Of a DNA stretch of 35,436 nucleotides, positions 1,407-22,052 are shown piece by piece. The notes beneath the pieces are model-generated. The model saw nothing but the letters and a program-made list of their open reading frames with translations, was not told the DNA's origin and searched no databases. The position numbers were made by a program, and so were the translations under genes. Source of the stretch: Pseudomonadota bacterium (GTDB lineage Bacteria; Vulcanimicrobiota; Xenobia; RGZZ01); contig RGZZ01000009.1 of the NCBI GenBank assembly GCA_010028905.1, forward strand, positions 1 to 35,436. Reading direction: 5' to 3'. Numbering within the stretch: the first letter of the stretch is position 1; the number at the start of each line of letters is the position of its first letter.

Positions 1407-2255
1407 ATGCAAGAGCCCATCGAAACCGCTGTTGCGGATCCAGTCGGGTCAGCCCCCCCCCAGGGGAACCATCGCCGCCCGACTGCTGAGAGAGCGGCGG
1501 CCAGTCATGAAAGAGACGATACCCAGCAGATCTTCGAGGAGTTCTGCCGAACCCGCGACCCGGAGCTTCGCGCGCGCCTCGTGGAGCGCCACACGCGCCT
1601 GGTCCGGCACATCGCCTACAAGTTCGCCAATCGCGGAGAGCCTGTCGAAGACCTGATCCAGGTCGGCAGCCTGGCCCTCGTGAAAGCCATCGACCGCTAC
1701 AACCCGAGCGTGGGCGCGGCCTTCACCACCTACGCCACGCCCACCATCATCGGCGAGATCAAGCGCTACTTCCGCGATCTCGCCTGGACGATGCGCGTGC
1801 CAAGAAGCCTGCAGGAGCTGCGTCTGCAGGTCAACCGCACCAGCGAGCAGCTCTCACAGACCCTCGGGCGCATCCCCACGGTGCGTGAGATCGCCGCGGC
1901 GCTCAACGTCAGCCAGGAGCAGGTGCTCGAGGCCGAGGAGATGGGGTCGGGCCACGGGCTCACCTCGCTCGACATCGAGGTCGACAATGGCGATGACGCC
2001 AGGATGTCACGCCTTCTCGACTTCATGGGCGAGTCTGAGGGGGGATACGGCCATGTGGAGAATCGGCTCCAGCTGCAGCGCGCCATCGGCGCCCTCAACC
2101 CGCAGCAGCGCGCCGTCATCTACCTGCGCTACTACGCGGGACTGTCGCAGAGCGCGTGCGCGCGTCAGCTCGGCGTATCGCAGATGCAGGTCTCCCGCCT
2201 GCAGAGCCAGGTTCTGAAGCGGTTGCGCGCCCTGTTGCAGGAGCATATCGCATGA
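1407..2255 (+). CDS. Alternative RNA polymerase sigma factor, SigB/SigF/SigG type
   Basis: A 282-residue group 3 sigma-70 factor. Region 2 is well conserved (EDLIQVGSLALVKAIDRYNP at 81-100, then FTTYATPTIIGEIKRYFRD). Region 3 follows (VPRSLQELR, TVREIAAALNVS), and region 4 ends in a helix-turn-helix (LSQSACARQLGVSQMQVSRL, 246-265). Such factors direct general-stress or developmental transcription and are usually held by an RsbW/SpoIIAB anti-sigma kinase. No such partner is adjacent, but a receiver-HATPase fusion at 21018-22052 is a candidate. Start ATG at 1407 has GGAGA six bases upstream. The first 40 or so residues are a variable extension. It diverges from the hydrolase; I saw no clear promoter in the 176-bp gap. 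Confidence 0.93.
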   Translation: MQEPIETAVADPVGSAPPQGNHRRPTAERAAASHERDDTQQIFEEFCRTRDPELRARLVERHTRLVRHIAYKFANRGEPVEDLIQVGSLALVKAIDRYNPSVGAAFTTYATPTIIGEIKRYFRDLAWTMRVPRSLQELRLQVNRTSEQLSQTLGRIPTVREIAAALNVSQEQVLEAEEMGSGHGLTSLDIEVDNGDDARMSRLLDFMGESEGGYGHVENRLQLQRAIGALNPQQRAVIYLRYYAGLSQSACARQLGVSQMQVSRLQSQVLKRLRALLQEHIA

Positions 2256-2262
2256 CGGCACT

Positions 2263-2316
2263 GAACGCGTGTTCGAGATCAAGAACATACGTTCTTAAAA
2301 GTACGAACACGCGTTC
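2263..2316. promoter_or_regulatory. Array of three LexA-type SOS boxes
   Basis: Three copies of GAAC-N4-GTTC occur at 2263-2274 (GAACGCGTGTTC), 2283-2294 (GAACATACGTTC) and 2305-2316 (GAACACGCGTTC). The N4 of all three fits RNRY of the Gram-positive LexA/DinR consensus CGAACRNRYGTTYC. Box centres are 20 and 22 bp apart, about two helical turns, so bound dimers would lie on one face. Boxes 1 and 3 are also inverted copies of each other, so the array could fold as a hairpin after the sigma-factor stop. The downstream gene is the M20 peptidase at 2413. A weak promoter TTCGAG (2272) - 17 bp - TTAAAA (2295) would be inside the array. Confidence 0.72.
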
Positions 2317-2412
2317 TGCAGGCTAGTGACCTCTTGTTTCTGCTCGTAGCGCATCGTCGCTCTTCCTGTGAATCGCAGAGGAGGCTGCCCACATTCCACA
2401 GAACACCCGGGC

Positions 2413-3813
2413 ATGCGCCGAACTCTGCCGATTCTTGCCCTGCTCGTCTCGCTCGCGCTCGCCTCCCCGCCCGCGCGCGCCCAGTCACCCGTTGATGCGG
2501 CCGCCAAGGCCGCGCCACAGCTGCTGGCCGATTACCTGAAGATCGACAACACGAATCCACCCGGAAACGAGCTGGCGGCCTGTCGCTTCCTCGAAGCCCA
2601 TCTTGCCAAGGCCGGGCTCAAGAGCACCGTGTGGGAGTCGGCGCCGGGACGCGGCAACCTGCTCGCCGTGCTGCCCGGGCGCAACCCATCGCTGGGCGCG
2701 CTCATCCTGCTCTCACACAGCGACGTGGTTCCAGCCGACCCACGATACTGGAAGCACCCGCCGTTCAGCGGACGCATCACTGACGGGCGCATCTGGGGCC
2801 GAGGCGCCCTCGACATGAAGGGCATGGGCATTCTCGAGACCCAGGCGTTCATCGCCCTGGCAAAGAGCGGCCTCCCCGTGGAGCGCACCGTCATGCTGCT
2901 CGTCGTGGCAGACGAGGAGATGGGCGCAGACGCCGGCGTGAAGTGGATGTTCGAGCACCACCCCGAGGTGTTCAAGAACGTGGCGGGCATCATCAACGAA
3001 GAGGGGCCCGGCCTGCTTGAGAACGGCCGGCTGAAGTTCTGGGAGGTGCGCCCCGGCCAGAAGGGCATCGCCTGGCTGCAGCTGATTGCCAAGGGCACGC
3101 CGGGGCACGGTTCGCTGCCCTTTCGCGACGCCGCGCCCAATCGCTTGATCAGAGCCCTCGACCGCGTGCTCGCCTATGAGACCCCGATACAGGTACTGCC
3201 CGAGGCGCAGCAGTTCTTCGCCCAGATATCCGCGCTCGAGACCGACCCGAAGCACGCCGCCCAGCTGCGCGATGTGCGCGCCTCGCTGCGCGACCCCGAG
3301 TTCTCGCGCTGGTTCTTCTCGAACCGGGTATGGAACGCCATGGTACGCAACACCATCACCCTCACCCAGCTCGAGGCGAGCAACAAGACCAACGTCATCC
3401 CGCCCCAGGCCACCGCGGCCCTCGACTGCCGCCTGCTGCCCGGACAAGACACCACCACCTTCATCGAGAGCATCCAGAAGCTCGTGGCGCCCGAAGGGGT
3501 CGAGGTAAAAGGACTCGATCTCGAAACCGCGGTAGCCGCCTCACCGACCAACACCGAGCTCTTCCGGGTCATCAGCGGGGTCATCGGCGAGTGGTTCCCG
3601 AAGGCCCTGGTGGTCACGCCCTACTCGCGGGCCGCCAACGACAGTCGCTACTTCCAGGAGAAGGGCATCGTGTCGTACGGCTTCGTGCCCTTCGCCCTCA
3701 CCCAGGGCGAGCTCGACACCATGCACGGCAATGACGAGAGCGTCTCGGTGGAGAACGTCGAGCGCGGCGTGCGCATGCTCTACGATGTGGTGAAGCGCTT
3801 CTCCACGAAGTGA
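2413..3813 (+). CDS. Secreted M20-family metallopeptidase
   Basis: A 466-residue zinc-dependent peptidase or deacylase of family M20 (ArgE/DapE/CPG2/carboxypeptidase S group). Metal and catalytic motifs are present: SHSDVV (H102, D104), GRGALDMKG (bridging D134), ADEEMG (catalytic E168, metal E169), NEEG, and TPGHGS in the dimerisation lid. A final TMHGNDE supplies the last His. Residues 1-23 form a Sec signal peptide (MRRT, hydrophobic core, ARA|QS), so it acts outside the cytoplasm. ATG 2413 is chosen because it begins the signal peptide, although its Shine-Dalgarno is poor; GTG 2368 would hide the signal. The LexA-type boxes lie about 97 bp upstream. It converges on the VapC gene. Confidence 0.9.
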   Translation: MRRTLPILALLVSLALASPPARAQSPVDAAAKAAPQLLADYLKIDNTNPPGNELAACRFLEAHLAKAGLKSTVWESAPGRGNLLAVLPGRNPSLGALILLSHSDVVPADPRYWKHPPFSGRITDGRIWGRGALDMKGMGILETQAFIALAKSGLPVERTVMLLVVADEEMGADAGVKWMFEHHPEVFKNVAGIINEEGPGLLENGRLKFWEVRPGQKGIAWLQLIAKGTPGHGSLPFRDAAPNRLIRALDRVLAYETPIQVLPEAQQFFAQISALETDPKHAAQLRDVRASLRDPEFSRWFFSNRVWNAMVRNTITLTQLEASNKTNVIPPQATAALDCRLLPGQDTTTFIESIQKLVAPEGVEVKGLDLETAVAASPTNTELFRVISGVIGEWFPKALVVTPYSRAANDSRYFQEKGIVSYGFVPFALTQGELDTMHGNDESVSVENVERGVRMLYDVVKRFSTK

Positions 3814-3828: not shown

Positions 3829-4218
3829 CTACCAGACGATGGCGACAGGAAACAGTTTGAACACCTCGTCGTCGGTGACGAGGGGCAGCCCTTCGAGGAG
3901 GCTCTGCGCGGCCAGCATTCGATCAAACGGATCACGATGTGCCTGCGAGAACGAACCCGCAGCGAGCGCATGCGCCGAGGTGATGGCCAGCTCGTCGGCC
4001 TGAAAGTACCGAAGGTGATCGCGGTAGCTCTCGACCACCGCGTGGGCCTCATGCAACTTGCCCAGCCTGTGCTTAGTCGAGATCTCCCAGGCGCTGGCCG
4101 CGGAGACCACCACCGCAGTGGCCGGATCACGTAGGAGCTCTCGCACCTTTCGAGACAGCCGGGAAGGGCTGACAAGAGCCCACAGCAAGACGTGGGTGTC
4201 GAGCAGCAGGCGGCTCAA
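3829..4218 (-). CDS. vapC: VapC-type PIN-domain toxin
   Basis: A 129-residue PIN-domain ribonuclease, the toxin of a type II toxin-antitoxin pair. The acidic active-site residues are visible: D7 in LLLDTHVLLW, E45 in SAASAWEIS, D96/D99 in HRDPFDRML, and D116/D117 in VTDDEVF. Length and motif spacing are those of an intact VapC, so it is probably active; family members cleave tRNA or rRNA. The start is TTG at 4218, sharing TTGA with the antitoxin stop, so its translation depends on that of the antitoxin. It is the second gene of the pair and ends 15 bp from the convergent M20 peptidase gene. Confidence 0.93.
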   Translation of the reverse strand: MSRLLLDTHVLLWALVSPSRLSRKVRELLRDPATAVVVSAASAWEISTKHRLGKLHEAHAVVESYRDHLRYFQADELAITSAHALAAGSFSQAHRDPFDRMLAAQSLLEGLPLVTDDEVFKLFPVAIVW

Positions 4219-4448
4219 GCAGGCTCCCAGCCCACCATCTCGTCTTCGGGCAACGGCTCGAAGAAAGCTTTCGTGACGCGACCTTTCACGAACCCCATGG
4301 GGCGCTCGGCAGGTTGCTCGAGAGGAACGAGGCGAGCACAGGGCTTGCCTCCCTTGGCTACGATGATCTCGTGGCCTTCTCGCACCTCTTCGAGCAACCT
4401 GGACAGGTGCGTCTTGGCTTCGTGCACGTTGACGATTCGAGGTTTCAT
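4215..4448 (-). CDS. Phd/YefM-type antitoxin
   Basis: A 77-residue antitoxin. The N-terminal Phd/YefM fold is clear (VNVHEAKTHLSRLLEEVREG, then EIIVAKGGKPCARLVP). It normally makes a DNA-binding dimer that represses its own promoter. The C-terminal part, from about residue 48, would wrap the PIN toxin. Pairing of a Phd-type antitoxin with a VapC toxin is common. The ATG at 4448 has no Shine-Dalgarno and lies six bases after a -10 box, so the mRNA should be leaderless. Overlap with vapC ensures coupled synthesis. Confidence 0.92.
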   Translation of the reverse strand: MKPRIVNVHEAKTHLSRLLEEVREGHEIIVAKGGKPCARLVPLEQPAERPMGFVKGRVTKAFFEPLPEDEMVGWEPA

Positions 4449-10808: not shown

Positions 10809-11587
10809 GCAACGAACCCGTCTTTCGTGACGGGGCCCGCGGTGAAGCCTGTCTGCTGCTTCACGGACTGGGCGGGGGCAGCTTCGAGATGAGCCTCCTG
10901 GCAGAGCATCTGCACCACCTCGGCTATGCCGTGCAGACCGTGAACTACCCTGGCCACGACCGTCCCTCAGCGATCATGCCCGCCTCCCGATGGGAGCAGT
11001 GGTATACCCACGTCGAACAGGCCTGGCTCTCACTGAGGCGCCGATACCCCCGCGTGTCGGTGATCGGGTTCTCCACGGGCAGCCTTCTCGGGCTGCATCT
11101 CGCAGCCCGCCACCCCGTCGACACGCTGGTGGCCCTCAGCCCTTTCCTGGCCGTTCGCCATCAGTGGTACTACGTTCTGCGCCCAGAGGCCTACCTCTTC
11201 TCCATCGGACACCTGTTGCCGTTCGTGCCCAAGATGAGCGCCCCGCTCAAAGATCGGGAGATGGCACGCCAGGTCAGCAACGCCACCTGGTTTCGCACGT
11301 TCAGCCTTGCCTCTGCGCGCAGCGCCGTCGCGCTCATCGCCGAGGTGAAGCGCGAGCTGCGCAACGTGCACTGCCCGATTCTCGTGATGCAGTCACCCCA
11401 TGACCGTGTGGTCGATCCGAACGGGGCCGAATATCTCTTCCGCGAGGTCGGGGCACGCATCAAGAAGATGCACTGGCTGCGCCGCTCCGATCACATCATC
11501 ACGCTCGACCTCGAGCGCGACGAGGTCTTCGAGCGTGTGGCGAGCTTCCTGCACGCCTGCGTCGACGCGGGTGAAGCCGCGGTCTGA
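10802..11587 (+). CDS. Est30-like alpha/beta hydrolase (carboxylesterase)
   Basis: A 261-residue cytoplasmic hydrolase resembling Est30-type carboxylesterases and monoacylglycerol lipases (COG1647). It has the oxyanion motif LLLHGLGGGSFEM, the cap entry NYPGHDRP, and nucleophile elbow GFSTGS with Ser91. Asp201 lies in QSPHDRVVDP and His231 in RRSDHIITLD, completing the triad. Length matches the family (about 250 residues). It ends three bases before the convergent glgA stop. The start ATG at 10802 overlaps a possible leader ORF. The natural ester is unknown. Confidence 0.88.
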   Translation: MLSNEPVFRDGARGEACLLLHGLGGGSFEMSLLAEHLHHLGYAVQTVNYPGHDRPSAIMPASRWEQWYTHVEQAWLSLRRRYPRVSVIGFSTGSLLGLHLAARHPVDTLVALSPFLAVRHQWYYVLRPEAYLFSIGHLLPFVPKMSAPLKDREMARQVSNATWFRTFSLASARSAVALIAEVKRELRNVHCPILVMQSPHDRVVDPNGAEYLFREVGARIKKMHWLRRSDHIITLDLERDEVFERVASFLHACVDAGEAAV

Positions 11588-21017: not shown

Positions 21018-22052
21018 TCAGCCCGTGCCCGGCTCGTTCCAGTCGGACAGGAAACGTTCCACCGTCGAGCCGCTGGCGTCCGGGAGAGGTTCGAGCCCCA
21101 TCTCCATGACGACGATGGTTCCCTTCCGGCTCGTTGAGAGCAGCACGCGATCGAGCAGCTCGAGAAGGATCGTGTACCCATAGCCCAGCGACGTCTTCGA
21201 CGACCAGCCCTTCATGAGCGTGCTGCGGGGCAGCAGCGAGAAGTCGATGCCACCTCCCTGGTCACTCACCCAGATCTGTGCCCGATCGCTGAAGCGGTAG
21301 ATGTCGAGCACCCCACCACTGGCGTGCTTGAGGGCATTCGTGGCCGCCTCCGACACACAGAGCACCACGTCGAACACGCGATCGCGGTCCATGTGCATGG
21401 AGAGCAGCGCCTCCTCGGTGGCGGCTCGCGCCGTCCCCACGTCTGAAGAGTCGGAGATCGGAAGGCTGCGCACGCGCTCGCCTCCACCGCGCAGGAGAGC
21501 AAGTTCGCTGTCTTCTGCCAGCACGAGCTTGCCACCGCTCACAGCATAGATGACATCGCGCATGATGGTGCGCCGCTCGCGCTCCATCTCGAGGCGGCGC
21601 TCGCTCTCGATCTTGTCGTCGATGAGAGACTTCAGGCGAATCAGGTTGCGCACGCGCGAGAACAGCTCGAGGCGGTCGAAGGGCTTCACGAGGAAGTCGT
21701 CTGCGCCTTTGTCGAGCCCCTTGATCTTGTCTTGCAGATCGTTCAGGTTCGTGAGCATCACGATGGGAATGAGTCGCGTCTTCTCGGCGTTCTTCAGGGT
21801 CTCACAGACCTGGTATCCATCAACCCCCGGAAGCATGACGTCGAGAAGGATGAGATCGGGGGGATCGCGCTCCACCATCTCGAGCGCTGTCTCTCCATCG
21901 TAGGCGACAGAGACCTCGTAATCGTTCTCGAGGTGCTTCTGCAGCAGCAGAACATTCGCTTCGTTGTCGTCGACGACAAGGACGCGGCGACGCCGACCGC
22001 TCGTGTCGAACGCAGCGGTGAGGTCGGGGCGAGTGGGCTCGGTTGTCGGCAC
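21018..22052 (-). CDS. Receiver domain fused to RsbW/SpoIIAB-type HATPase
   Basis: A 344-residue response regulator. Residues 22-140 are a receiver with phospho-acceptor Asp71 (LILLDVMLPG) and Lys123 (LVKPFD). A coiled coil (about 140-165) leads to a GHKL ATPase (about 205-320) of the anti-sigma kind. The N-box is SEAATNALKHASGG (E235, N239), the G1 box DQGGGID and the G2 box SLGYGYTIL. There is no HisKA dimer or phosphorylatable His, so it is not a normal histidine kinase; family knowledge suggests a Ser kinase or anti-sigma or anti-anti-sigma partner. GTG 22052 has GGGAG nine bases upstream. It follows the receiver-kinase gene, with a hairpin in between. The SigB-like factor at 1407 is a possible target. 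Confidence 0.88.
   Translation of the reverse strand: MPTTEPTRPDLTAAFDTSGRRRRVLVVDDNEANVLLLQKHLENDYEVSVAYDGETALEMVERDPPDLILLDVMLPGVDGYQVCETLKNAEKTRLIPIVMLTNLNDLQDKIKGLDKGADDFLVKPFDRLELFSRVRNLIRLKSLIDDKIESERRLEMERERRTIMRDVIYAVSGGKLVLAEDSELALLRGGGERVRSLPISDSSDVGTARAATEEALLSMHMDRDRVFDVVLCVSEAATNALKHASGGVLDIYRFSDRAQIWVSDQGGGIDFSLLPRSTLMKGWSSKTSLGYGYTILLELLDRVLLSTSRKGTIVVMEMGLEPLPDASGSTVERFLSDWNEPGTG

Follow-up and report, generated by a model that had tools for sequence, protein, structure and literature searches.

The window, i.e., the entire 35,436-nucleotide stretch of DNA analyzed here, carries three perfect GAAC-N4-GTTC palindromes in the gap between two plus-strand genes, one coding for a SigB-like sigma-70 family factor with regions 2, 3 and 4 (1407..2255) and the other for a secreted-looking M20 peptidase with a dimerization domain (2413..3813), which is the presumed target of the array. 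Box 1 (2263-2274; GAACGCGTGTTC) is the reverse complement of box 3 (2305-2316; GAACACGCGTTC), and the 12-mer of box 1 begins two further arrays of this genome, those on contigs C51 and C5. Box 2 (2283-2294; GAACATACGTTC) has AA..TT flanks, as does the middle one of the three boxes at C51, and the same sequence as the third box of the acidimicrobial lexA array described below. None of the boxes is assigned to a strand. Their positions, their centre-to-centre spacing of 20 and 22 bp and the RNRY centre in 3/3 are exactly as given in the preliminary description (starts at 2263, 2283 and 2305). The boxes thereby combine the core and the centre of Gram-positive type LexA boxes. There are no other such sites in the window; shuffled versions of it hold 0.45 on average, and three were reached in 0 of 100 shuffles.

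The boxes had been said to overlap the 3' end of the sigma-factor gene; however, its stop codon lies at 2253-2255 and box 1 begins 7 bp later. On the other side, box 3 is separated by 96 bp from the ATG of the peptidase gene, and this presumed leader (2317..2412, plus strand) shows no sigma-70 consensus promoter, terminator or RNA family. The long hairpin proposed earlier does exist at the sequence level, where 13 bp can form between boxes 1 and 3, and the predicted RNA fold has an energy of -33.3 kcal/mol (z = -3.8). Searches of the array and its surroundings found no GC stem with a T-run of the terminator kind, no recognizable sigma-70-type promoter and no credible Rfam match. The suggested small RNA is thus unsupported, all the more so as the hairpin is not common to the other arrays, and the idea of a conserved terminator fares no better, since folds differ between arrays; we accordingly dropped both readings. 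Beyond the peptidase gene, and convergent with it, lies a pair of genes for a PIN-domain toxin and a Phd/YefM antitoxin (3829-4448, minus strand).

A search for other GAAC-N4-GTTC sites, as had been proposed, recovered four further arrays of three to four boxes, bringing the total in this genome to five. A first-order chance model of the 5.69 Mb genome predicts about 60 single sites, 0.005 tandem pairs and 4e-7 triples. Single sites number 44 versus 47 in the reversed control, i.e., they show no excess, and hence only the arrays stand out. The C51 array (10998-11051; three boxes) precedes the gene for a UbiX-like flavoprotein; the C5 array (21604-21657; three boxes) lies between tRNA-Val and a GDSL hydrolase gene; the C113 array (3675-3767; four boxes) is between folD and an uncharacterized gene; and the C143 array (1658-1708; three boxes) is at the stop codon of a carbon-nitrogen hydrolase gene, before the gene for a 68-residue protein. 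In the C5, C113 and C143 arrays some outer boxes have one altered end base (GTTT or AAAC). Across the five arrays neighboring boxes are spaced by 19-22 bp, about two helical turns, with one exception of 39 bp, and 60-115 bp separate the arrays from the start codons that follow. Possible single-site regulon members are marked by two lone GAACACGCGTTC boxes, which lie a short way upstream of genes for DNA polymerase III alpha (L028:5847-5858; contig C174) and a FecR-domain protein (L027:4822-4833; contig C97). Another single site (C4:23635) falls within a long perfect palindrome, and we left it out of the operator count.

The array boxes are further distinguished by their centres: 15/16 have a purine in the first and a pyrimidine in the last centre position (RNNY), which lone sites mostly lack. 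When only perfect boxes are considered, an RNRY or RYNY centre is seen in 9/10 array boxes against 6/34 lone sites (p = 6e-5). Copies within and between arrays have almost nothing but GAACR..YGTTC in common, with no common flanks and unrelated spacers; the flanks are inconsistent and conform neither to the C..G found with LexA-A in family f2 nor to the GT..AC found with LexA-B (see below). The unlike spacers disfavor recent copying, and the differing spacers and centres led us to drop simple tandem duplication. On average the arrays fold more stably than their shuffles (z -1.2 to -3.8), but the folds have no common shape and the window hairpin is absent from the others. Because centres such as A..C cannot pair, recognition by a protein is favored over stem pairing, and selection for an RNA stem was likewise dropped. 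Taken together, the arrays are real and non-random, and they probably serve a dimeric protein as operators. Next to the arrays of this genome we saw no dedicated repressor gene, nor was any known SOS gene seen with an array; the array-associated genes are not known repair genes.

Upstream of recA, the imuB-like gene and lexA of this genome there is no GAAC-N4-GTTC site. Instead, the pattern GTGTWC-N4-GWACAC has exactly two matches genome-wide, before recA (C52:10451) and before a gene for an imuB-like Y-family polymerase (C179:7813; Pfam IMS match, E = 2.3e-5). Both boxes are of the GTGTAC-N4-GWACAC type and sit between a TTGAC-type -35 element and a -10-like hexamer. As these two promoters account for both matches, this species has a GTAC-type SOS box, resembling the cyanobacterial AGTACWNWTGTACT (PMC3091678). 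The arrays have neither a GTAC-type core nor GT..AC flanks. This genome has two recA genes (L255 on C52 and L258 on C65), as does that of the sister genus G002 (L242 and L257), in which GGTTAACC repeats occur in the promoter region of the second copy.

The class to which this organism belongs holds two LexA paralogues, LexA-A and LexA-B, which we compared across four families (f1-f4). The check for lexA suggested in the preliminary description was positive: LexA-A is present, in two pieces on contigs C47 and C85, with the contig gap falling exactly over the recognition helix. LexA-B was not found in this assembly and is present in genomes G001 and G002. It is canonical, with an AAG cleavage site and the Ser and Lys residues. 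In families f3 and f4 its promoter contains TGAAC-N4-GTTCA, through which it appears from sequence to be autoregulated; GT..AC flanks are found in 9/10 of these boxes versus 0/16 array boxes. LexA-B of the window's own family (f1) differs in its recognition helix, and halves of the GTGTWC/GTACAC type are seen in its promoter region. The recognition helix of LexA-A reads S-S-x-T-V-H in the sister genera (SSSSTVH in G002), and we take this helix and the DNA-binding domain to be of the Bacillus type by comparison with B. subtilis. In family f1 LexA-A lacks the Ala-Gly scissile bond, with Gly-Gly in this genome and Glu-Gly and Pro-Gly in sister genera (the linker alignment is somewhat uncertain), and retains the Ser-Lys dyad (GDSM, TVKRFF); as the dyad is kept, some cleavage may still occur. 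In families f2-f4 (L190, L192, L197, L200, L202) LexA-A has kept the DNA-binding domain and lost the Ser-Lys catalytic dyad, and for this reason a non-proteolytic LexA appears to be widespread in the class. No GAAC-N4-GTTC box lies upstream of lexA-A itself in G000, G001 or G002; in family f2 a CGAAYANNTRTTCG palindrome occurs upstream of lexA-A in four genomes of one genus, in varying surroundings.

A scan of public genomes for triple arrays returned at least 118 stretches, and among the matches listed just one lies at a lexA. This array, in an acidimicrobial MAG (L150), directly precedes lexA, with centres ATTT, GTAT and ATAC at distances of 21 and 23 bp, and the DNA-binding domain of the adjoining LexA is identical to LexA-A at 44/75 positions versus 27-35/75 to LexA-B. 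Within the phylum (149 genomes) no triple array was found outside the window's family. No box lies upstream of the M20 orthologue in the sister genus G002 (58% identity), and the 61%-complete G001 yielded no M20 orthologue. G001 does have four GAAC-N4-GTTC boxes at 18-bp spacing, which lie in frame inside the ORF of an Lhr-like helicase (contig C226; L060:1915-1980); there they encode a cysteine- and threonine-rich hexapeptide repeat in an apparent variable insertion. Farther afield, a Nitratifractor MAG has a triple GAAC-N4-GTTC array (L107:127-182), with a TTGACA -35-like element inside it, directly before a TetR-like gene (family assigned by eye from sequence). Palindrome arrays of many kinds occur in unrelated genomes, especially Bacteroidales, in which multiple arrays are built from three to four palindromes resembling GAACATATGTTC, set apart by unlike spacers of ~10 nt. 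Such loci are found in Bacteroidaceae RGIG1657 (L084, L087, L089, L110, L121, L129, L151) and in Parabacteroides PH5-46 (L077, L104, L117, L127, L134), the latter framed by TCCCACA..TGTGGGA.

The window boxes match the core of the B. subtilis LexA box, CGAACN4GTTCG (PMC3091678). With the LexA boxes of B. subtilis and Actinobacteria they share this palindrome, the RNRY centre and, as is sometimes seen there, several boxes per promoter, besides the triple array before the acidimicrobial lexA; they differ in that the arrays here lack the CG flanks, are not associated with repair genes and coexist with another box at recA and imuB. For the protein, a parallel is offered by LexA of Synechocystis sp. 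PCC 6803, which has Gly-Gly in place of Ala-Gly, as LexA-A does here, and is thought not to run the SOS response (PMC3091678, PMC7567884); its proposed role is instead the control of general metabolism and of stress genes (PMC3091678, PMC7567884, PMC4759255). However, the catalytic Ser is lost there and kept in LexA-A of family f1, and the sister genera here have a second, canonical LexA. Two LexA-like repressors within one lineage are also seen in Leptospira interrogans, with two lexA genes (PMC3789691), and in Bacteroidetes, where diverged binding motifs of LexA paralogues have been reported (PMC8565304). The class studied here differs in that one paralogue has lost its scissile bond in f1 and the entire Ser-Lys dyad in f2-f4.

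With about an even chance of being right, our preferred reading is that the array is an operator read by LexA-A, which controls non-repair genes without a damage response; that the reader is probably this second LexA relative rather than the SOS system follows from the use of another binding sequence by the DNA-damage genes. Each of the three boxes would be bound by a dimer of a LexA-type winged-helix protein; their spacing of about two helical turns would put them on the same face of the helix and allow the dimers to bind together before the M20 peptidase gene. LexA-A would be the most likely reader, given its Bacillus-type DNA-binding domain, and in the window's family it would not be released by RecA upon DNA damage because the Ala-Gly bond is missing at the cleavage site. 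Its role would thus be that of an ordinary repressor, or tuner, of genes outside DNA repair, such as those for the M20 peptidase, the UbiX-like flavoprotein, the GDSL hydrolase and others. The arrays, their excess over the chance model, the restricted choice of centres, the other box at recA and imuB and the lost scissile bond are observed; that LexA-A binds the arrays, that it represses, which genes it targets and that damage elicits no response we infer. LexA-A itself may bind the recA and imuB boxes. Likewise, we infer the array-binding protein from relatives, as the contig gap covers the recognition helix of LexA-A in this genome and LexA-B is absent from the assembly. Besides this gap, the points against an operator of LexA-A are the lack of a box at the lexA-A promoter, the absence of the array at the M20 gene of G002, the array inside the G001 helicase gene, which is odd for an operator, the dyad kept in f1 and the lack of a recognizable promoter at the window array.

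The preliminary description read the boxes as LexA-type SOS boxes, in which case a damage-responsive LexA would bind the array and DNA damage would induce the peptidase. The LexA-type part of that reading has held up: a lexA exists, the core is that of the B. subtilis LexA box and of the Gram-positive SOS box, and the lexA genes of relatives carry such boxes, including the LexA-B of f3/f4 with its apparent self-regulation. The SOS part has not, in view of the separate box in the promoter spacers of recA and the imuB-like gene, and because the arrays lack both the GTAC core of that box and the GT..AC flanks of the LexA-B boxes in f3/f4, and no known SOS gene was seen with an array. On this sequence comparison, we regard true SOS operators as quite unlikely. 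Similar palindrome arrays precede other genes, such as the Nitratifractor TetR-like gene, and the core is therefore not unique to LexA. The boxes might then be operators of another dimeric regulator, e.g., a TetR-type repressor, and resemble the LexA box by chance, as their want of consistent C..G or GT..AC flanks would allow; nevertheless, a LexA with a LexA-A-like DNA-binding domain adjoins a matching array, and no dedicated repressor gene was seen beside the arrays here, leaving this option unlikely. We also keep open an origin as palindromic repeats or DNA/RNA structures from a mutational or mobile process without any regulator, because the G001 array sits in frame inside the helicase gene. 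The variety of palindrome arrays in Bacteroidales and other unrelated genomes, the stability of all array folds relative to shuffles on average and the absence of the array at the orthologous M20 gene point in the same direction. Against this, the copies have little beyond GAACR..YGTTC in common, the A..C centres break the pairing and the folds lack a common shape, making such an origin rather improbable.

On a wider evolutionary view, which we offer tentatively, LexA would have been duplicated in this class: the copy retaining the SOS genes would have shifted its box from GAAC to GTAC. The other copy would have become non-cleavable and stayed with the ancestral GAAC box, and phased arrays of three to four boxes would have brought a few unrelated genes under its damage-independent control. 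Evenly spaced LexA-like boxes are commonly read as a sign of SOS control. As recA and imuB here carry a separate, conventional box, an annotation based on the box sequence alone would be misled. If LexA-A does read the arrays, this uncultured class would show, cleanly and within a few related families, how a repressor was duplicated, its motif shifted and its cleavage lost.
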